Below, one piece after another: positions 550 through 51,599 of a DNA stretch of 54,587 nt. Position numbers and translations under genes: made by a program. Each line of letters opens with the position of its first letter. Positions within the stretch are counted from its first letter, which is position 1. The notes beneath the pieces were generated by a model that was given only the letters and a program-made list of their open reading frames with translations, made no database searches and was not told where the DNA came from. Origin of the DNA: Opitutia bacterium (GTDB lineage Bacteria; Verrucomicrobiota; Verrucomicrobiia; Opitutales; Opitutaceae); the NCBI GenBank assembly GCA_016199925.1, contig JACQFT010000005.1, positions 1-54,587 on the forward strand, written 5' to 3'.

Positions 550-650
550 TTTTTCCACGGATCTCACAGCTTGATCCGGATGCCATCCCCGTCCGCCGCC
601 AACCCATGATTGATCCACGCCGATCCGTGAAATCCGTGGTCAAAAAAATT
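550..650. repeat. dispersed 'ccacggat...atccgtgg' repeat, family E
   Basis: The spacer between the CBS gene and hrpA (403-720) has no gene. It holds a repeat whose left arm is ccacggatctcac and whose right arm is gatccgtgaaatccgtgg followed by tcaaaa. The same right arm recurs at 47516-47538, and degenerate forms occur near 5777-5812, 30515-30690 and 40135-40380. The arms are partly inverted copies of each other. Confidence 0.6.
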
Positions 651-720: not shown

Positions 721-3700
721 TCACCTCGGCAGCCGCAGATTCGCCAGCGCCCCGAGACTCTTGAACACCGTCTTCTCGGTTGGTTTGGCCGCGGCCGGCG
801 GCGCGGTCGGCGACGTTTGCGGCGGAGTCGCCGGCTTCATCGCCGGACCCGCCTTCTCCGCCCCGCCCGCGCGCAGTTCCGCCAGCGCCCGCGCCAGGCG
901 CACCGCCGACACCGGCTCCGCCGTGCCCAGCTCCTGCGCGAACAAGCTCACCCGAAATTCCTCCACCAGCCAGCGCAGCGTTTCTGCGGCGGCCGCGCTG
1001 CGGCTTGCCGGGGCCGCGCCGCCCTCGGTGCTTCGGGTTCCAGCGGCCCCCTTCCGCACCGCCGCCACGAACGGCGCCAGCTCCTTCGCGCGCGCGGCGT
1101 CCTTCGCCGCGTCGCGCGGCCAACGCTCCGCCCGCAACTGCATCGCCTTCAGGTAGCGCGGCAGCTGCTTCAGCCGCTCAAACGGCGTCGCCAGCAAAAA
1201 ATCCGCCGGCACCAGCGCCGCCAAATCCTCCGCCATCCCCGGATACGGCGTCCGGTGCGTCTGCAACGCCAGCCGCAGCGTGAGAACTTCCTTCAACCCT
1301 TCGAGCAGCCTCGGCACCGCGCCGCGCAGGTCGCGCTTCGCCTCGTCGAGCGCCGCCGCAAATCCCGCCGCGGTCAACCGGTAGGGCGAGGCGTCCCCGC
1401 CGGGCCGCGGCTCGCCGGGACGGATCCCGGTGCCACCGCGCGGGCTGTTCGCCCCACCCATCCGCGCCGGATCGCACGCCCAGCGCGCGAGGCCCAGCAG
1501 CGCGTGCTCCTGCAAACGCTCCAACGGCACCAGCGTGACCGAAAGGGGCCCGAGCGCCCGCAGCTCGCGCAAATCTTTCCCGAGCCAGCCGAGCTCGTGC
1601 TTCAGTTGCACCTCGAACAACCGGAATAGCGCTGCGCGCGTCGCCGCCGTTCTCTCCTCCTCCGTCGCGAACAGCCGCACCGCCACGCCGGCGGGCAGCG
1701 CCTTCAGTCCGGGATAAGCCGGCACCGGCACGCCGTGCTGCTCCGCGACGGTGATCTGTTCCGGCAGATCGCCGAACTGCCACGAGTTCGCCGGCTCCGT
1801 CTCCCACTTCGCGCGCGCGTTGCGCCACGCCGCGCTGTCGCCCGCCGCCACCTGCTGGCTGAGATCGCGTTGCTGGTCGCGCAACAGCTCCTTGATCTCC
1901 GCCAGATCGCGGCTCGCGCACAGCACCTTGCCCTTCCGGTCCGCCACTTCCACCCGCACGCGCAAGTGGTCAGGCAACGGCTTGTCGTCCCACAGCGACG
2001 GTGCGATGCGCACGCCGAAGCGCGCCGAGAGCAATTCAGCGAGCGCGTTCACGAGCGTCGGCGGCACCGGCCGCGCCGCGAGCAGTCCGATCTGCGCGGA
2101 AATTCTCTCCGCCGACTCGGCGAGCGGGATGACTTCGCGCCGCTGCCCCTTCGGCAGCGCCTTCAGCAGCAACTCGATCTTCGCCTGCAAGTGCCCCGGC
2201 ACCGCCCAGTCGAGCGCGGCCGGCGTGAGCGCATCGGCTTCCTCGATGCTCACGCGCACGGTCACGCCGTCCTGCTCCTGCCCCGGCTGATAGGAGTAAG
2301 CGAGCGGCATCACGCGGTTCTTGATCGGCAGCGCGTCGGGAAACGCCTCGGCATCGTGCGCCGTATCCGCCGCCGGCCGCAGATTCGCCTCCGTCATCCA
2401 CAGGAATTTCTTGTCCGTCATCTGCCGGTGCCGCACGAGATCGATCAACTCCGGCACCGACGACACGCCTTGGTCTGGGGACGCGGCGCCCTCGTCGCGT
2501 TTCTTTGGGTGGGAGCGGCTGTCCCTAACCGCCCTTCCGTCGCCCGCTGCACGTGGCTCGACTGGGGGGGCGACGCCCTCGTCGCCCTCCGACCGCGGCG
2601 AGGGCGCCGCGGCTCCAGCTACACTTTCTTCCGGCATCAGCCGCCGCGCGTAGAACTGATACGCCGCCTCGTCGAGGTCCATGTAACCCGAGCTGCGCGT
2701 GCGCGTGAGAATCGTCTCCGCCTTGTCGCGCACCTTGCGGTTGTTCGCCAGAAAATCGAACGGCCACGTCACCGTGTCCGCCACCAATCCCTCGCGAATG
2801 AAAATCTCCGTCGCGTGCCGCGGATTGAGCTTCCCGTAGCTCACCGCCCGCGTCTCCAGCTCGAGGTTGTAGAGCCGGCGCCGCTCCTTCACGAGCACGC
2901 GGCCCGCCTCGGCGTTCCAGAACGGTTCGCTGTGCGCCACCCGCAACAAATGGGCGCCAAGGTCGATGGCCCACTGCGGATCGATCCGCGCACACGTGCG
3001 CGCGTAGACCTTGCCCGTCTCCATGATTTCGGCCGCCATCAACCAACGCGCCACTTTTATTTTGGCGGGTAGGGCGTGGCCGGGGCGAGCGCCTGCGCCT
3101 CGGTCGCTGGACGCGCCGCTCTTTTTCTTCTCGCGGTCGCCTTTCTCATGCAGTGCCGAGCCGGGAAAGATGGAAACCTTCCGGTCGTGCGCCGCGTGAT
3201 ACGTCCCGTCGTCCGCCCGCGTCGCGATGTTGCCGAGCAAACCCGACAAAATCGCCCGGTGAATCGCCCGGTAGCCGGGCGTGCCCATGCGCAGGTCCGG
3301 CTCGACTGTAGGAGGGGCTTTACGCCCCGATTCTTTCGGATCGCGGGGTAAACCCGCTCCCACAGTTCCGTCATAGACCGACGTCATCTTGAAACCCTCG
3401 CGCTCGCGCAGCACGTCCTCGAGCTGCGCATGCACATCGCGCCACTCGCGCATGCGCATGAACGACAGGTAGTGTGTCGTGCAGAATTTCCGCAGCTTGC
3501 CGAGCGAGAGCCGCTCGAACTCGTCGTGATACGCCTCCCAGATCGCGAGCAGCGTCAGGAAATCCGAATCGGGATGCGTGAAGCGCCGGTGCGCCGCGTC
3601 CGCTTTTGCCTGCTGGTCGAGCGGCCGCTCCCGCGGGTCCTGAATACTCAGCGCCGCCGCGATGATGAGCACCTCGCGCAGCGCCTTCTCGTGGCGACCT

Positions 3701-5199
3701 TGGATGATCATGCGGCCGACCGTCGGGTCGGCGGGCAAGCTCGCCAACTCGCGACCGAGTTCGGTGAGTTCTTGCTCGAGGTAGGGCGAGGCGTCCCCGC
3801 CGAGCCGCGGCTCACTCGGAGAGTTCGCCCTACCTTTCGGAATCAACGCCCCCAATTCCTCCAGCAACCCGTAGCCGGCGCGAATGCCTTTCACCGGCGG
3901 TGCGTTGAGAAACGGAAACTCCTCGATGTCGCCGAGGCCGAACGCCTTCATGCGCAGGATCACGTCCGCGAGATTGCTGCGCTGGATTTCCGGCTGCGTG
4001 TAGCGCGGGCGGTCGTTGAAATCCTGCTCCGAGTAGAGGCGGATGCACACGCCGTCGCTCACGCGGCCGCACCGGCCCTTGCGCTGGTCGGCGCTGCTCT
4101 GCGCAACCGGCTCGACCGGCAGGCGCCGCGTGCGGCTCTGCGGCGTGTAGCGGCTCAGCCGCGCGAGGCCGGTGTCGATCACAAAGCGGATGCCGGGAAT
4201 CGTCAGCGAGGTCTCGGCGATGTTCGTTGCGACGACGACCTTGCGCTTCTGCGACGGCGCGAACACGCGCTGCTGCTCGGCGTTGGTCAGCCGGCCGAAA
4301 AGCGGCACCATTTCAATTTTCGATTTTTGATTTCCGATTTTCGATTGGCCGCGGCCTTCCAGCAAATCGCACGTCTCCCGGATATCCCGCTCCGTCGGCA
4401 TGAAAACCAAAATGTCTCCGGCGCTGCTTTCGGTGAGCACGCGCTCGACCGCCTCGACCGCCGCGTCGATGTAAGTGAAGTCGTCCGGCTTGCTTCTTTG
4501 GTAGGGCGAGGCGTCCCGCCGAGCCGTCTTGTTTTTCGGCTCACCCGGAGGGTTCGCCCTACCCTCGCTGTCGCCTAGTTCGTCGAGCGGCGCGTAGATG
4601 ACCTCGACCGGATACATGCGGCCCGACACCTCGACGATGGGCGCGTCGTCGAACGCCTTGGAAAACGCCTCGGTGTCGATCGTCGCCGAGGTGATGACGA
4701 TCTTCAGCTCGGGCCGGCGCAGGCGCAACCGGCGCAGATGGCCGAGAATGAAGTCAATGTTGAGCGAGCGCTCGTGCGCCTCGTCGACGATGATCGTGTC
4801 GTATTCGCCGAGGAACGGATCGTTCTGCAGCTCGGCGAGCAGCATGCCGTCGGTCATGAACTTGATGACCGTCTCGCGCGAGGTCTGGTCGGCGAAGCGG
4901 ATCTTGCAGCCGACCTCGCGACCGAGCGCCACGTTCAGCTCCTCCGCCACACGCCGCGCCACGGAGGTTGCCGCCACGCGCCGCGGCTGCGTGCACGCGA
5001 TCTTGCCGCGCTCGCCGCAACCCGCCGCGAGACACATCTTTGGGAGTTGCGTCGTCTTGCCCGACCCCGTCTCGCCCGCCAGCACCAGCACCTGATGCTT
5101 CTGCAACAATCCGATGATCTCGTTCGCGCGCGCGCTGATCGGCAGCTCGGGCGGGAACTCGATCCGGAAGGGCCAGGGTTTCTTGGGACGGGACGGCAT
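721..5199 (-). CDS. hrpA: ATP-dependent RNA helicase HrpA (DEAH box)
   Basis: This is a DExH-box RNA helicase of the HrpA type, which acts on RNA and translating ribosomes in the cytoplasm. Motifs in order: Walker A GETGSGKTT at about residues 42-50, TQPRR (Ia), DEAH in IIVDEAHERS at about 137-146, SAT in ITSATID, then QRKGRCGRV (motif VI). The long C-terminal part matches the HrpA-specific extension (DUF3418-like). At 1492 aa it is about 190 aa longer than the roughly 1300 aa of E. coli HrpA. Much of the excess is in-frame repeat DNA annotated separately (around residues 213-233, 284-295, 456-473, 612-632, 859-910 and 1248-1273). Against the E. coli protein as remembered, several inserts fall in variable loops rather than in motifs. 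All catalytic motifs look intact, so the gene is probably functional. It is divergent from the membrane-protein gene starting near 5244. Confidence 0.95.
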   Translation of the reverse strand: MPSRPKKPWPFRIEFPPELPISARANEIIGLLQKHQVLVLAGETGSGKTTQLPKMCLAAGCGERGKIACTQPRRVAATSVARRVAEELNVALGREVGCKIRFADQTSRETVIKFMTDGMLLAELQNDPFLGEYDTIIVDEAHERSLNIDFILGHLRRLRLRRPELKIVITSATIDTEAFSKAFDDAPIVEVSGRMYPVEVIYAPLDELGDSEGRANPPGEPKNKTARRDASPYQRSKPDDFTYIDAAVEAVERVLTESSAGDILVFMPTERDIRETCDLLEGRGQSKIGNQKSKIEMVPLFGRLTNAEQQRVFAPSQKRKVVVATNIAETSLTIPGIRFVIDTGLARLSRYTPQSRTRRLPVEPVAQSSADQRKGRCGRVSDGVCIRLYSEQDFNDRPRYTQPEIQRSNLADVILRMKAFGLGDIEEFPFLNAPPVKGIRAGYGLLEELGALIPKGRANSPSEPRLGGDASPYLEQELTELGRELASLPADPTVGRMIIQGRHEKALREVLIIAAALSIQDPRERPLDQQAKADAAHRRFTHPDSDFLTLLAIWEAYHDEFERLSLGKLRKFCTTHYLSFMRMREWRDVHAQLEDVLREREGFKMTSVYDGTVGAGLPRDPKESGRKAPPTVEPDLRMGTPGYRAIHRAILSGLLGNIATRADDGTYHAAHDRKVSIFPGSALHEKGDREKKKSGASSDRGAGARPGHALPAKIKVARWLMAAEIMETGKVYARTCARIDPQWAIDLGAHLLRVAHSEPFWNAEAGRVLVKERRRLYNLELETRAVSYGKLNPRHATEIFIREGLVADTVTWPFDFLANNRKVRDKAETILTRTRSSGYMDLDEAAYQFYARRLMPEESVAGAAAPSPRSEGDEGVAPPVEPRAAGDGRAVRDSRSHPKKRDEGAASPDQGVSSVPELIDLVRHRQMTDKKFLWMTEANLRPAADTAHDAEAFPDALPIKNRVMPLAYSYQPGQEQDGVTVRVSIEEADALTPAALDWAVPGHLQAKIELLLKALPKGQRREVIPLAESAERISAQIGLLAARPVPPTLVNALAELLSARFGVRIAPSLWDDKPLPDHLRVRVEVADRKGKVLCASRDLAEIKELLRDQQRDLSQQVAAGDSAAWRNARAKWETEPANSWQFGDLPEQITVAEQHGVPVPAYPGLKALPAGVAVRLFATEEERTAATRAALFRLFEVQLKHELGWLGKDLRELRALGPLSVTLVPLERLQEHALLGLARWACDPARMGGANSPRGGTGIRPGEPRPGGDASPYRLTAAGFAAALDEAKRDLRGAVPRLLEGLKEVLTLRLALQTHRTPYPGMAEDLAALVPADFLLATPFERLKQLPRYLKAMQLRAERWPRDAAKDAARAKELAPFVAAVRKGAAGTRSTEGGAAPASRSAAAAETLRWLVEEFRVSLFAQELGTAEPVSAVRLARALAELRAGGAEKAGPAMKPATPPQTSPTAPPAAAKPTEKTVFKSLGALANLRLPR
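1381..1459. repeat. family A palindromic repeat inside hrpA (copy 1)
   Basis: It begins gtagggcgaggcgtcccc and ends with an imperfect complement (ttcgccccaccc), with extra sequence in the middle. It is translated within HrpA as a Gly/Pro/Arg-rich stretch ending GGDASPY. The outer arms match the copies at 3781, 4501 and 11537. The frame stays open. Confidence 0.75.
2470..2625. repeat. family C repeat block inside hrpA
   Basis: Overlapping arms of the type gacgccctcgtcgc and gcgagggcgccgcgg surround gtgggagcggctgtccctaa. It is translated in frame as a low-complexity Ala/Pro/Arg-rich insert at about residues 859-910. Related pieces (gacgagggcgtcccgg) occur in intergenic DNA at about 27899-27920 and about 30555-30622. 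Confidence 0.55.
3306..3365. repeat. family B palindromic repeat inside hrpA
   Basis: The left arm is ctgtaggaggggctttacg and the right arm, its imperfect complement, is gtaaacccgctcccacag. The same family forms the intergenic palindrome at 51541-51599. It is translated as about 20 residues (GLPRDPKESG core) at about residues 612-632 of HrpA without breaking the frame. Confidence 0.75.
3781..3834. repeat. family A palindromic repeat inside hrpA (copy 2)
   Basis: It has arms gtagggcgaggcgtcccc and gagagttcgccctacc with a GAGCCG/CGGCTC inner stem. It is 54 bases, an exact multiple of three, and is translated as GRANSPSEPRLGGDASPY in HrpA. Confidence 0.8.
4318..4350. repeat. AT-rich 'cgatttttgatttccgatt' repeat inside hrpA
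   Basis: An AT-rich run of near-repeated cgattt/gatttcc units stands out inside GC-rich hrpA. It is translated as KIGNQKSKIE in a loop just before the VPLFGRL segment. It is shorter than the other inserts and of a different family. Confidence 0.6.
4501..4563. repeat. family A palindromic repeat inside hrpA (copy 3)
   Basis: It is 63 bases, a multiple of three, from gtagggcgaggcgtcccg to gggttcgccctacc, with a GAGCCG...CGGCTC inner stem around tcttgtttt. It is translated within HrpA as GRANPPGEPKNKTARRDASPY minus its ends, just before the PDDFTYIDAAVEAV helix of the helicase core. Confidence 0.85.
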
Positions 5200-11536: not shown

Positions 11537-11611
11537 GGTAGGGCGAACCCTCCGGGTGAGCCGATTTGATTCGGTGGCGAAGCACGGCTCACCGAGACGG
11601 TTCGCCCTACC
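11537..11611. repeat. family A palindromic repeat, intergenic copy
   Basis: A 75-base near-perfect palindrome: ggtagggcgaaccctccggg ... gagacggttcgccctacc, with an inner gtgagccg/cggctcac stem. It sits between the convergent cdd and the 11646 gene. It is the free-standing version of the element found in frame inside hrpA and may also act as a bidirectional terminator. Confidence 0.8.
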
Positions 11612-25087: not shown

Positions 25088-25694
25088 ACCGGCGAGCATC
25101 ACCGTCGTTGACCGAGCCGCCCCCGGGCGTCCGACCGCCCGCCCAAATCCCCCCGCGCCGCGCCCCCTCCGGCGCGAACACCAAGACGAACCTATCGGGT
25201 TGCTTTGCGGCGGCGACGCACGGGGCTTTTTGGCCGGGCAGGAGACGAAAGTTCGCCGCCCCGGCGCGACGGGCCCCTGCACCTGCCTCCTTCGTGCGAT
25301 GGCAAACCGCTCGACGCCGCGATCACCTGCCGATTCGGGGTCCCGCTCCACCAATGCCGCTTCGTCCACATGACCCTAGAAAACGCAGTTGAAACGCGGA
25401 GAGCGCGGAGAGCACAGAGGAGAAAACCCGGCTTTTTCGTCCCGAGTCCCCTCACTCGGCAGGTGAGCCTTTCGAGTGAAGGATCCTCTCTCTTTCTGCT
25501 CCGCGTCCTCCGCGATCTCCGCGTTTCAACTGCGGAATTTAGGATGACTATACAATGGCTGGATCGCTTTCGGCCGCAGGGCGCGCCAGGCAGCCGGACC
25601 GGAATTCACCGAGTCGGCGGCGGCCATCCGGTTCCCTCCGCGCAATCCGAAGACAAAGAAACCGGGCGAACGAGGCGATCGCGCGTTCGCCGAC
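25088..25694. other. gene-free stretch with a long dispersed repeat
   Basis: About 600 bases between the SRPBCC gene and pilT. No frame looks like a real protein. The middle holds the family F repeat (25378-25548); the rest shows only short Arg-rich frames on both strands. Confidence 0.5.
25378..25548. repeat. family F long dispersed repeat, copy 1
   Basis: About 170 bases beginning agaaaacgcagttgaaacg and ending gatctccgcgtttcaac with a short tail. They are almost identical to 40698-40864. The two ends are inverted copies of each other (gttgaaacgcgga / tccgcgtttcaac), and the centre includes gtcccctcactcggcaggtg. The shape is that of a non-coding, MITE-like unit with terminal inverted repeats. 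Confidence 0.8.
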
Positions 25695-30622: not shown

Positions 30623-30725
30623 CCCCAGTCAAGCAATCGGAATAAATGGGACGATTGATCCGTTCCTATCCGAGAAATCCGTGGTGAAAAAAACGCCCGA
30701 AACGGCGACGGCGCGGCGGGTAGCG

Positions 30726-30793
30726 ACGTTCTGCTGGCCAGCAGAGTGCCTGCCGTTTCAGAACCACAGGCACGGAGGCCTGTGGCTACGCTA
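30726..30793. repeat. family D repeat ('tgctggccagca' plus 'ccacaggcacggaggcctgtgg')
   Basis: Two adjacent palindromes, ttctgctggccagcagag and ccacaggcacggaggcctgtgg. The first recurs at 49489-49508. The spacer 30400-30804 holds this, a family C and a degenerate family E repeat, and no gene. Confidence 0.6.
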
Positions 30794-33691: not shown

Positions 33692-34213
33692 TCCGGGCCC
33701 GGCCGCTACCTCAGCCTCATGCCGTTCTCCGACGGCTGCGGCAGCTCCCGCAAAATCGAGGCCCCCAAGGAGCGCACGCGCCTCCGCCCGACGCTCAACG
33801 GGCTCCCCATCCCCGAAAGCCTGGGCGTCATCGTCCGCACCGCCCGCCGGCGAAGGGAAAAATCGCTCCGTCGCCCGCCGCCTTCAAGCCCGCAAAGACG
33901 GCAAGGAATACGCCCTCCGCGTCCACACGCGCCCGGCGATCCTTAAGCGCCTGCACTCGGACGACGCGGACCTCCTCATGCGCATGGAGAAAACCCACGG
34001 CATGAGATTGGCCTCCTGCGCCGGCCCCAACTACCACGCCTGGCAGCCACAGGCTCGGCGACGGCAGATCGAGAATTCTTGCCCGCCGTAGGCTTCGCGA
34101 AGGAGGGTGAAAATTATCACTTGTCGCGGCGGCTCGCCTCGCCAAAGCCTCGGCGACGGCTGAAGCCCGACGGGCGAAGACGGAACGCGATGACGGACGA
34201 GGAAAACCGGTAA
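33692..34213 (+). pseudogene. degraded ribonuclease E/G (rng) fragment
   Basis: It starts within the S1-type region (GPGRYLSLMPFSDGCGSSRKIEAPKERTRLR...IPESLGVIVRTA), the classic RNase E/G segment. It then jumps by a frameshift near 33850, with loss of the entire catalytic domain, to the C-terminal part (ALRVHTRPAILKRLHSDDADLLMRMEKTHGMRLA...PNYH). After a short insert it reaches an end of the type NAMTDEENR with TAA at 34211. The 3' part is duplicated at 35574-35761 behind the Fic gene. No intact rng is present in the window. Confidence 0.78.
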
Positions 34214-34277
34214 CAAATCTTTCTCGTTCTCTTAATCTTTCTCTCTCCGCGCCCGGTCTCACCGCCGGGCGCATTGT
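33961..34277 (+). repeat. direct repeat flanking the Fic gene, left copy
   Basis: It matches 35580-35827 from cctcctcatgcgcatgga through agccacaggctcggcgacgg and attcttgcccgccg to ctttctctctccgcgcccgg. The left copy has an extra segment of about 70 bases (34115-34190). It comprises the 3' end of rng plus its downstream sequence, including the stem ggtctcaccgccgggcgc. Confidence 0.85.
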
Positions 34278-35573: not shown

Positions 35574-35761
35574 ACCCCGCCGACCTCCTCATGCGCATGG
35601 AAAAATCCTACGGCGTGAAACTGGCCTTCAGAGCCGACCCCAACTACCACGCCTGTCAGCCACAGGCTCGGCGACGGCTGATCGAGAATTCTTGCCCGCC
35701 GAAGGCTTCGCGAAGGAGGGTCAAAGTCATCAACGCGATGACGAACGAGGAAAACAGGTAA
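35574..35761 (+). pseudogene. ribonuclease G 3'-end fragment behind fic
   Basis: ADLLMRMEKSYGVKLAFRADPNYH, an in-frame insert of about 22 codons carrying a palindromic repeat, then VKVINAMTNEENR and TAA at 35759. It is better preserved than the left copy. The insert cagccacaggctcggcgacg...ttcgcgaaggagg keeps the frame, as in hrpA. Confidence 0.75.
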
Positions 35762-35827
35762 CACATCTTTCTCGTTCTCTTAATCTTTCTCTCTCCGCGC
35801 CCGGTCTCACCGCCGGGCGCGTTGGTT
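35580..35827 (+). repeat. direct repeat flanking the Fic gene, right copy
   Basis: The right-hand partner of 33961-34277, ending in the same ctttctctctccgcgcccgg / tctcaccgccgggcgc sequence. Confidence 0.85.
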
Positions 35828-39922: not shown

Positions 39923-40190
39923 TCACGGAACCGTGACGCGCTTGCCTTCGAGCTGACCGGGCGTGAGCGGCGCTTCCGCGGCATTGCCAGTCGCGTCGTA
40001 GGCGCGCACCGACTCTGTGCCGACGAACGTGTCGCCGCTCACCCTGATCCGAAATGAAAGCTCCAGCCGCCCCGAGTATTTTTGCGAGACGCGGTCAGCG
40101 ATCACCTCCGCCCACTTGCCCTTGATCTCCTTGCCCTCCCCGCCCTCCGTGCCCGCTCCCTCTCTGTCCTCCGTGGTTCCATCCGTGTCG
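39923..40190 (-). pseudogene. remnant of an unrecognised gene
   Basis: The minus frame reads KGKWAEVIADRVSQKYSGRLELSFRIRVSG...GTESVRAYDATGNAAEAPLTPGQLEGKRVTVP and stops at 39923. The alternating strands suggest a beta-sandwich C-terminus. Upstream the frame runs into a family E repeat (40135-40215) and no start can be defined. Family unknown. Confidence 0.35.
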
Positions 40191-41214
40191 ATCCGAGTAA
40201 TCCGTGCTTAAAATTCGGACCTCTTCCCAGTGGTGCCGATCAGCGTGCAGCAGCGGTTTCTCTCCGCTCCTCCTTCGCGTCTCTGCCTTTCGCGGTCTTC
40301 GTGTTTCTCGTGGCCGATCTTTCTCCGTCCTTGGCGAACGCATCCGTGCCCATCCTCGTCATCCGTGGTCAAAATCGTCTTGGCTGCTTTCTCCGTTGGC
40401 GCCGATTGGCGGCCTTTGGCGGTCAACCCGTCTCGGTCGTGCGCCATAACACCTCCGGTATCTCGCCTCGTCGGATCGTTCGTGGCTCGCCGGTGATTGG
40501 ATTCCCGCGGCCCGGCCCGTATTTTGGTCGTCCGGCGCACCACCGCAAACCCTGCCGCGGCCTCAAGCGCACATAGCCGCGCCGCGCGAACCTGCTTCGC
40601 CCTTTGCACGCGGCGGGTGGCGTGCGGCACGGCGGCCCCGACGGACTTCGCGGAGGTGCCCGCGAGCCCGATGAGTTTGTCGCGGTGGTCTTTCATCCAA
40701 GAAAACGCTTTTGAAACGCGGAGGGCGCGGAGAGCACAGCGGAGAAAACTCGGCTTTTTCGTGCCGAGTCCCCTCACTCGGCAGGTGAGCCTTTCGAGTG
40801 AAGGACCTCTCTCTTTCTGCTCCGCGTCCTCCGCGATCTCCGCGTTTCAACCGCAGAATTCAGGTTCATAGCCGGTAAGTCCGATCCGCCGAAGCTGGCC
40901 TAGGTGGGACTCGGGAAAAAGGCCGGCTCCGTCCGGCCCCAGGATTGAGAAAACCGAGACGACACGGAGGTCGTCCCGCCAGACGAAGTGAGAGTTCGAG
41001 AAATCCGTTCGGCCTCGCGACAGCCCGGGGCCCAGCGTGGCGGGGATGCTATGGGCCCGCCCGGCCCGCCACTATGGGGCATCACCCGGCAGTCGGCACG
41101 GCTGGCCGGCGGCGCGCCGCGCCCCCCCGCCGGACGTGCAGCCGGGGGGCCGGCGCGGCCCCGCCGCGGCCAAAAAAATCTCCGCGCCCGGCGACCGCCG
41201 GCGTGCGCTCCGCC
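40191..41214. other. gene-free, repeat-rich stretch
   Basis: About 1 kb with degenerate family E pieces (ctccgtggttcc, atccgtggtcaaaa), the family F repeat (40698-40864) and small inverted arms near 40918-40982 (ggccggctccgtccggcc). A minus frame from about 40695 (MKDHRDKLIGLAGTSAKSVG) may be another gene remnant. No convincing complete gene. Confidence 0.5.
40698..40864. repeat. family F long dispersed repeat, copy 2
   Basis: Nearly identical to 25378-25548, with a few substitutions, and with the same terminal inverted arms (ttgaaacgcgga / tccgcgtttcaa). Confidence 0.8.
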
Positions 41215-47458: not shown

Positions 47459-47538
47459 TCTTCTCCACAGATTTCACTGATGGATCCGGGGCCCGCAGCC
47501 CATCATCCATCCTGATCCGTGAAATCCGTGGTCAAATA
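47459..47538. repeat. family E repeat between the PIG-L and transporter genes
   Basis: It has arms ttctccacagatttcactgatgg and gatccgtgaaatccgtgg followed by tcaaataat. The right arm is identical to the one near 623-640. Confidence 0.65.
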
Positions 47539-50455: not shown

Positions 50456-50470
50456 CACCCCCCGCCAGCG

Positions 50471-50497
50471 CGGTTGTAATACATTATATTACAACCG
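50471..50497. promoter_or_regulatory. 27-bp AT-rich palindrome, copy 1
   Basis: cggttgtaat ... attacaaccg around acattat: 10-bp perfect outer arms, with the whole core palindromic except for one position. It is strongly AT-rich in GC-rich DNA. It may be a repressor operator or a repeat element. Confidence 0.75.
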
Positions 50498-50620: not shown

Positions 50621-50647
50621 CGTTTGTAATATATTATATTACAACCG
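50621..50647. promoter_or_regulatory. 27-bp AT-rich palindrome, copy 2
   Basis: cgtttgtaat ... attacaaccg around atattat. The inner 21 bases (ttgtaatata-t-tatattacaa) are a perfect palindrome. It lies exactly 150 bases from copy 1 in the same orientation and upstream of bshB. Confidence 0.75.
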
Positions 50648-50784
50648 CCCCGGGGTGTCGGCGCGGCCCTTCCACCTTCGGAGACTTTCGGAGCGTTCGG
50701 GGGACTTCGTTGTCTTCGGGACGTTCGGGGGGACTTTGGTGAAGCCCGCTCAGTTCTAAACCCGCCGGATTCGCGATTTCTCCC

Positions 50785-51510
50785 ATGAACCTTCCTGATC
50801 CTCCCCCGCCTCTCCTCGCCTTTGGCGCGCATCCTGACGACCTCGAATTCGGGTGCGGCGGCGTCCTCGCCCGCGAATCGCGCGCCGGCCGCCCCGTGCA
50901 TCTCGTCGTCTGCTCGCGCGGCGAAGCCGGCTCGAACGGCACCCCCGCCCTCCGCACCCGCGAGGCGAAGCACGCCGCCGCCGCGCTCGGCGCGACGGTG
51001 GAGTTCATCAAGCTCGACGGCGACGCGCACCTCGAAATCCGCGCCGCGCACGCGCTCAAACTCGCCCGCCTCATCCGCCAGCACCGCCCGCACGCCGTGC
51101 TCGCGCCCAGCCTCGTCGAGAACCAGCACCCCGATCACTGGCGGCTCGGCCAGCTCGTGCGCGACGCCACACGCCTCGCGCGCTACGGCGGCTTGCGGGA
51201 ACTCAAACGCCGGCCGCCGCACGCCGTCGGCCAATTGTTTTTCTACGCCGTCTCGCCCGACGCCGAGCCGCGCGACACCTTGCCCGTGCTGATCGACATC
51301 GCCGCACCCGACATCGTCGCCGCGTGGACGGCGGCGATGGAGGCGCACGCCTCGCAGTTGCAGACGCGCAACTACGTCGAGTTCCAGCTCGCCCGGGCCC
51401 GCGTCAACGGGATGCGCGCCGGCCTCGCCTGCGCCCAAGCCCTCTGGCCGAATGATCCGCTCGTGTTCGACTCGCTCGCCGCGATGGCCCGCAGCGCGCG
51501 GAGATTTTGA
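50785..51510 (+). CDS. bshB1: bacillithiol biosynthesis deacetylase BshB (PIG-L family)
   Basis: A 241-aa zinc-dependent deacetylase removing acetate from GlcNAc-malate. It has AHPDD at residues 15-19, then GGVLARESRAGRPVHLVVCSRGEAGSNGTP-RTREA (the BshB1-type GEAGSNGT...R-x-x-EA), VLAPSLVENQHPDHWRLG (third zinc ligand His), and the late segment QTRNYVEFQLARARVNG. The size and these motifs match BshB1 rather than MshB. It is preceded by the BshC-like gene and followed by bshA, all on the same strand. Confidence 0.9.
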   Translation: MNLPDPPPPLLAFGAHPDDLEFGCGGVLARESRAGRPVHLVVCSRGEAGSNGTPALRTREAKHAAAALGATVEFIKLDGDAHLEIRAAHALKLARLIRQHRPHAVLAPSLVENQHPDHWRLGQLVRDATRLARYGGLRELKRRPPHAVGQLFFYAVSPDAEPRDTLPVLIDIAAPDIVAAWTAAMEAHASQLQTRNYVEFQLARARVNGMRAGLACAQALWPNDPLVFDSLAAMARSARRF

Positions 51511-51540
51511 AAAATGCTTCCACCGCCGGACATCACAACT

Positions 51541-51599
51541 GTAGGAGCGGCTTTACGCCGCGATGAGTGTCCTGATCGCGGCATAAAGCCGCTCCTACA
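51541..51599. repeat. family B palindromic repeat between bshB and bshA
   Basis: gtaggagcggctttacgccg ... cggcataaagccgctcctac, a near-perfect 59-base palindrome. It is the free copy of the element inserted in hrpA at 3306-3365. A diverged half (gtgggagcgaccttggtcgc) occurs at 52811-52830. Confidence 0.85.

Follow-up and report, generated by a model that had tools for sequence, protein, structure and literature searches.

GTAG-tagged REP repeats are already known within genes, including RNA helicase genes of O. terrae (PMC3733652). Di Nocera et al. 2013 found O. terrae to be the richest in intragenic GTAG repeats among the genomes that they studied, with copies in uvrA, DNA ligase and RNA helicase genes, and suggested that such repeats are tolerated in protein loops (PMC3733652). 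The repeats described here resemble those of O. terrae in belonging to the same superfamily, in occurring in the same bacterial family, and in being inserted within coding genes (PMC3733652). We analysed a stretch of 54,587 nucleotides from an Opitutia bacterium (contig JACQFT010000005.1; hereafter, the window), in which several repeat families lie within a single helicase gene, hrpA.

Repeat inserts in an intact hrpA

The product of hrpA is a DEAH-box RNA helicase with intact helicase motifs, containing the Pfam domains DEAD, Helicase_C, HA2_C, OB_NTP_bind and DUF3418 (HrpA C-terminal), and it matches E. coli HrpA in the PDB. Gene calls throughout are from our own iterated gene model. A preliminary description had claimed at least six in-frame repeat insertions of several families in this gene, together with free intergenic copies of A and B, and we recovered all of them in place. 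The families A and B are GTAG-type REPINs, that is, inverted pairs of GTAG-tagged REP hairpins. The features are listed below, with insert coordinates compared to a sister species of the same genus (G001; L061, on the same contig as L108).

721-5199, minus strand: hrpA, a single open frame of 1492 aa, intact
4500-4563, within hrpA: A REPIN (A3), a head-to-head GTAG REP pair, encoding GRANPPGEPKNKTARRDASPY (aa 213-238); fold z -5.5; absent in the sister
4314-4347, within hrpA: AT-rich degenerate TTTTCGAT repeat, encoding QSKIGNQKSKIE; net +21 nt relative to the sister
3780-3834, within hrpA: A REPIN (A2), encoding GRANSPSEPRLGGDASPY (aa 455-473); fold z -4.2; absent in the sister
3306-3364, within hrpA: B REPIN, found by nhmmer, encoding TVGAGLPRDPKESGRKAPPT (aa 612-632); fold z -6.1; absent in the sister
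3060-3110, within hrpA: putative decayed A-like stretch (GGTAGGGCGTGGCC), uncertain; +27 nt relative to the sister
2475-2620, within hrpA: composite C block (aa 858-905); fold z -4.2; absent in the sister
1380-1458, within hrpA: A repeat (A1), an enlarged variant, encoding GGANSPRGGTGIRPGEPRPGGDASPY (aa 1247-1273); fold z -2.8
11537-11611: free A REPIN, between called ORFs
51540-51599: free B REPIN, just past a PIG-L gene that ends at 51510

All of the hrpA inserts (three A, B, the C block and the AT repeat) are translated in frame and are free of stop codons. The A REPIN at 4500-4563 is positioned in the linker joining the two RecA domains, and that at 3780-3834 has up to 96% identity to copies elsewhere in the same genome. 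At least three elements make up the C block, namely a C element, a further hairpin (GGGAGCGGCTGTCCCTAACCGCCC) and a C-like element in inverted orientation. The insert dimers fold strongly as RNA, with z scores of -2.8 to -6.1, and the A-like stretch at 3060-3110 folds no better than its shuffles. Outside hrpA, the free B REPIN overlaps only the final codons of a dubious ORF without a Pfam match.

The window HrpA and that of the sister species share about 89% identity over 1273 columns. In the DNA alignment the three A copies, B, the C block and the AT repeat all appear as insertions, every one of which is missing in the sister. The preliminary description had allowed that relatives might have loops of the same length filled with unrelated codons; instead, the sister loops are short where the window carries inserts. 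We additionally identified 120 matches to the A pattern in the window genome versus 5 in the sister, the latter being the control level, indicating that A has multiplied in the window lineage and not in its sister. The absence of inserts from the sister and this recent bloom suggest, indirectly, that A and B are mobile.

Between the two species hrpA has a dN of 0.09 and a dS of 0.61 (dN/dS about 0.15), and the window HrpA is under purifying selection. Since the source genome is a fragmented MAG, hrpA might be supposed to be a pseudogene, or to be mis-assembled at its repeats. However, the open 1492-aa frame, the low dN/dS and the intact motifs, along with the same pattern and open frames in many independent assemblies, leave such decay or artefact with a practically negligible probability.

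Repeat families and their reading frame

We searched 947 kb (about 0.95 Mb) of the window genome with iterated nhmmer profiles. These identified 118 A half-sites, a count biased upward since the stretches were picked around A copies, and about 70 B half-sites, as well as 77 E, 32 T and 12 AT matches. The reversed control gave 0 matches for A, 1-8 for B and 0 for AT, with almost none across families; the A and B repeats are therefore not chance occurrences. As a family, C is weak, with 15 low-scoring matches.

The A consensus reads GTAG-GGC-GA-nnnn-TCC(C)-nnnn-GA-GCC, in which several different nnnn arm sequences occur. Its stem covaries: across 70 REPs the nnnn arms are paired at 279 of 280 positions, compared to 213 with shuffled partners. 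We identified 36 strict A dimers in the 947 kb, of 52-77 nt, with their units arranged head to head. GTAG stands at the outer ends of both A copies (GTAGGGCG...CGCCCTAC) and B copies (TGTAGGAGCGG...CCGCTCCTACA), and both families occur as dispersed inverted REP doublets, most blocks of which lie outside called ORFs. The GTAG tag is absent from the C block and from the AT repeat, which is a degenerate octamer array.

Of the seven RAYT-type genes identified, two (on C212 and C32) are flanked by B REPs and one (on C240) by T REPs; none was found beside A copies in this MAG, which is 89% complete. RAYT transposases are the probable agents of REPIN copying, acting through single-stranded hairpin DNA, and a RAYT may likewise be the mover of A.

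Further repeats were observed in the same sequences. T is another GTAG REP family (GTAGCCACAGGC-CTCC-GTGCCTGTGG), found at 480-506 and 30764-30790 of the window and at 6311-7276 of L208. E is a dispersed ATCCGTGAAATCCGTGGTCAAAA repeat (window 613-645, 30658-30690, 40181-40374 and 47505-47537), and nearly all of its 77 matches in the 947 kb are extragenic. Positions 25370-25547 and 40693-40869 hold two copies, 94% identical, of a repeat that is about 170 nt long and has inverted ends (GCGGAGAGCGCGGAG / CTCCGCGATCTCCGCG). The segments 33965-34276 and 35578-35824 are near-identical (89-96%) and about 1.6 kb apart, an apparent tandem duplication, and an AT-rich inverted repeat (TTGTAATACATTATATTACAACCG; 50465-50497 and 50621-50653) has arms 123 nt apart in GC-rich surroundings. 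In L187, the GTAG of an A copy (2915-2985) seemingly gives the stop codon to the upstream gene; GTAG REPs supplying the stop codons of upstream genes have been described (PMC3733652).

The insertions respect the reading frame well beyond hrpA, as a genome-wide check proposed in the preliminary description revealed. Among the repeat blocks of the window genome (947 kb) with same-strand coding sequence on both sides, 22 of 25 have a common open frame, far above the chance expectation of one third (p 2e-8), and the three without one all lie at apparent gene ends. At least ten genes besides hrpA hold in-frame inserts in this genome. The hosts include Mfd (two A), a U32 peptidase (B, AT), an MmeI-type methylase (A and B) and an SNF2 helicase (B and A), together with a radical SAM enzyme resembling RlmN, adenine deaminase, a DUF255 protein, NuoG, GH31, a FadB-like protein and an AMP-binding enzyme. 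Apparent REP inserts at the N-termini of the called ORFs L182 and L193 were discounted, being taken as upstream sequence.

In hrpA orthologues, core lengths fall into one residue class modulo 3 for each tag class (16/16, 4/4 and 2/2), whereas those of non-ORF copies are spread over the three classes (16/9/14 and 8/18/15). A cores in other genes of the window genome fall into other classes modulo 3; the inserted unit is thus not constant, and we do not claim a fixed one.

Recurrent REPIN insertion in hrpA

We investigated the distribution of GTAG-tagged dimers among 55 distinct HrpA sequences from related genomes, the window's included, using a strict inverted-repeat finder with no knowledge of families. 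This identified 29 dimers in 17 orthologues, a figure that excludes the window's own imperfect dimers, which fail the strict detector. The dimers represent a number of unrelated families (among them GTAGGGCGA..., GTAGGGGCCG..., GTAGCGGCGC... and GTGGGAGCGG...), and cluster in six variable loops, near window residues 214, 457, 615, 858, 1246 and 1385; a single dimer lies outside them (L155, 1444). The first five loops are the sites of A3, A2, B, C and A1 of the window, respectively. In one relative (G057), the hrpA inserts have many further copies elsewhere in its genome.

In the ORFs that flank hrpA (195 kb), the same detector found no dimers. Among control genes it found none in valS (24 genes), one in uvrA (21) and two in mfd (25), and in random coding sequence one in 283 kb and one in 278 kb. 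The rpoB frame is of near-constant length. The excess in hrpA over the controls has p values of 1e-5 to 1e-13, based on counts that are not fully independent, as the close pair L116/L117 has inserts in common; the excess stands when either one is dropped. The same small set of loops holds different hairpins in related species, and hrpA is a recurrent hotspot, or landing spot, for REPINs in Opitutaceae.

That the inserts fall in variable loops, as the preliminary description had proposed for several of them by reference to E. coli HrpA, is borne out by alignment to E. coli HrpA and by the core columns of the orthologues, in which only 14% of dimer residues lie, compared to 91% of residues overall. 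On the E. coli structures (PDB 9ggr, 9gft and 6zww) the inserts map to 270/275, between the RecA domains, to the loop around 479, and between 607/618, 804/856 and 1104/1130, the E. coli protein being shorter there. AlphaFold models, built from shallow alignments and moderately reliable (mean pLDDT 56 and 64), show low confidence and coil at aa 207-240, 457-470, 612-636, 858-909 and 1249-1273. The C-terminal model is fairly confident around its low-confidence inserts (aa 858-909 and 1249-1273), and the poor N-terminal model is used as weak support only.

We consider it likely that mobile REPINs and a few other dispersed repeats entered the window hrpA, and that tolerance and purifying selection explain the pattern. 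The inserts would postdate the divergence of the lineage from its sister species. REPINs may be able to insert anywhere, and copies within hrpA would persist only if they were free of stop codons, kept the frame and fell within a flexible linker, where they are presumably tolerated and near-neutral. Purifying selection for a working HrpA would thus limit the in-frame inserts to a few disordered loops. With at least six such loops, HrpA would consequently gather elements of the REP family that happens to be active in a given lineage. Following presumed RAYT-type copying, selection for frame together with loop tolerance, both named in the preliminary description, accounts in this way for the frame bias, the restriction to loops and the recurrence.

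The third element of that description, a targeting mechanism, found no direct support. Under such a mechanism the transposase, or the replication or transcription state of hrpA, would steer REPINs, with a short sequence or a hairpin as a possible target. The strong recurrence of unrelated REP families in the same loops and the excess of hrpA over other long genes agree with this. However, elements without GTAG tags (the AT repeat, the C block and, in other orthologues, simple repeats and other non-REP repeats) occupy the same loops, which makes targeting unnecessary and favours tolerance over transposase targeting. The inserts moreover keep clear of conserved columns, a bias that a DNA target alone would not produce, and no common target sequence was seen in the aligned junctions, although they are too diverged to exclude one; indeed, the loops are too divergent for precise empty sites or a target motif to be defined. 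We therefore regard targeted insertion as unlikely.

The inserts could instead have been selected for a function, with their mRNA hairpins or added peptides being of help, for example in a self-sensing translation control of the RNA helicase. The strong RNA folds of the inserts would suit such a role, as would the helicases and repair enzymes among the hosts, here Mfd and SNF2 and likewise in PMC3733652. Nevertheless, hrpA is free of detected GTAG dimers in the sister and in the majority of the other orthologues (37 of 54), the encoded peptides vary among families, and metabolic genes (GH31, NuoG, adenine deaminase, FadB-like) are hit too, so that we consider a selected function very unlikely.

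It is also conceivable that the inserts are old and shared, with ancestral HrpA loop repeats being replaced in each lineage by gene conversion with genomic REPINs. This would agree with the use of the same loops, the same class modulo 3 within tag classes, and the inserts common to L116/L117. In contrast, the sister and many interspersed branches are empty and have short loops, and the families at one loop are unlike in length and sequence. Parsimony on the tree furthermore requires about 32 changes over the six loops (minima of 5, 7, 3, 9, 5 and 3, in order, the inserts of the window having been placed manually), and an ancestral origin appears highly improbable.

Tolerance alone does not, however, account for the excess of hrpA over valS, uvrA and mfd. 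A preference for hrpA across Opitutaceae beyond loop tolerance, through the transposition machinery or through feedback control by mRNA hairpins, seems fairly unlikely.

Comparison with described systems

As in the REPIN and RAYT systems of Bertels and Rainey 2011 (PMC3116915), the repeats here are inverted, hairpin-forming REP doublets, associated with RAYT genes in the case of B and T. REPINs were described in that study as almost wholly extragenic, whereas some of those identified here are intragenic. The parallel drawn in the preliminary description with the Rickettsia palindromic elements (reviewed in PMC10969869) holds for the in-frame insertion of palindromic repeats in unrelated genes, but not for the tag, which is CGTC in the R. 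conorii elements (PMC3733652) and GTAG in A and B. The Rickettsia elements also measure about 150 bp, compared to units of about 50-80 nt here.

The hrpA gene represents a natural replicated experiment, in which a conserved helicase has met, in many lineages, different mobile hairpins at the same few places. It allows the absorption of mobile DNA by a protein to be measured and the target preference of REPINs to be tested, and its loops can be used as a record of the REP families active in each lineage.

The inserts reported in PMC3733652 lie mostly at different sites in each species, except for recB in Xanthomonas. In contrast, a single gene here holds several families. What is new is that unrelated REP families converge on the same hrpA loops over many genera, as seen against coding controls.
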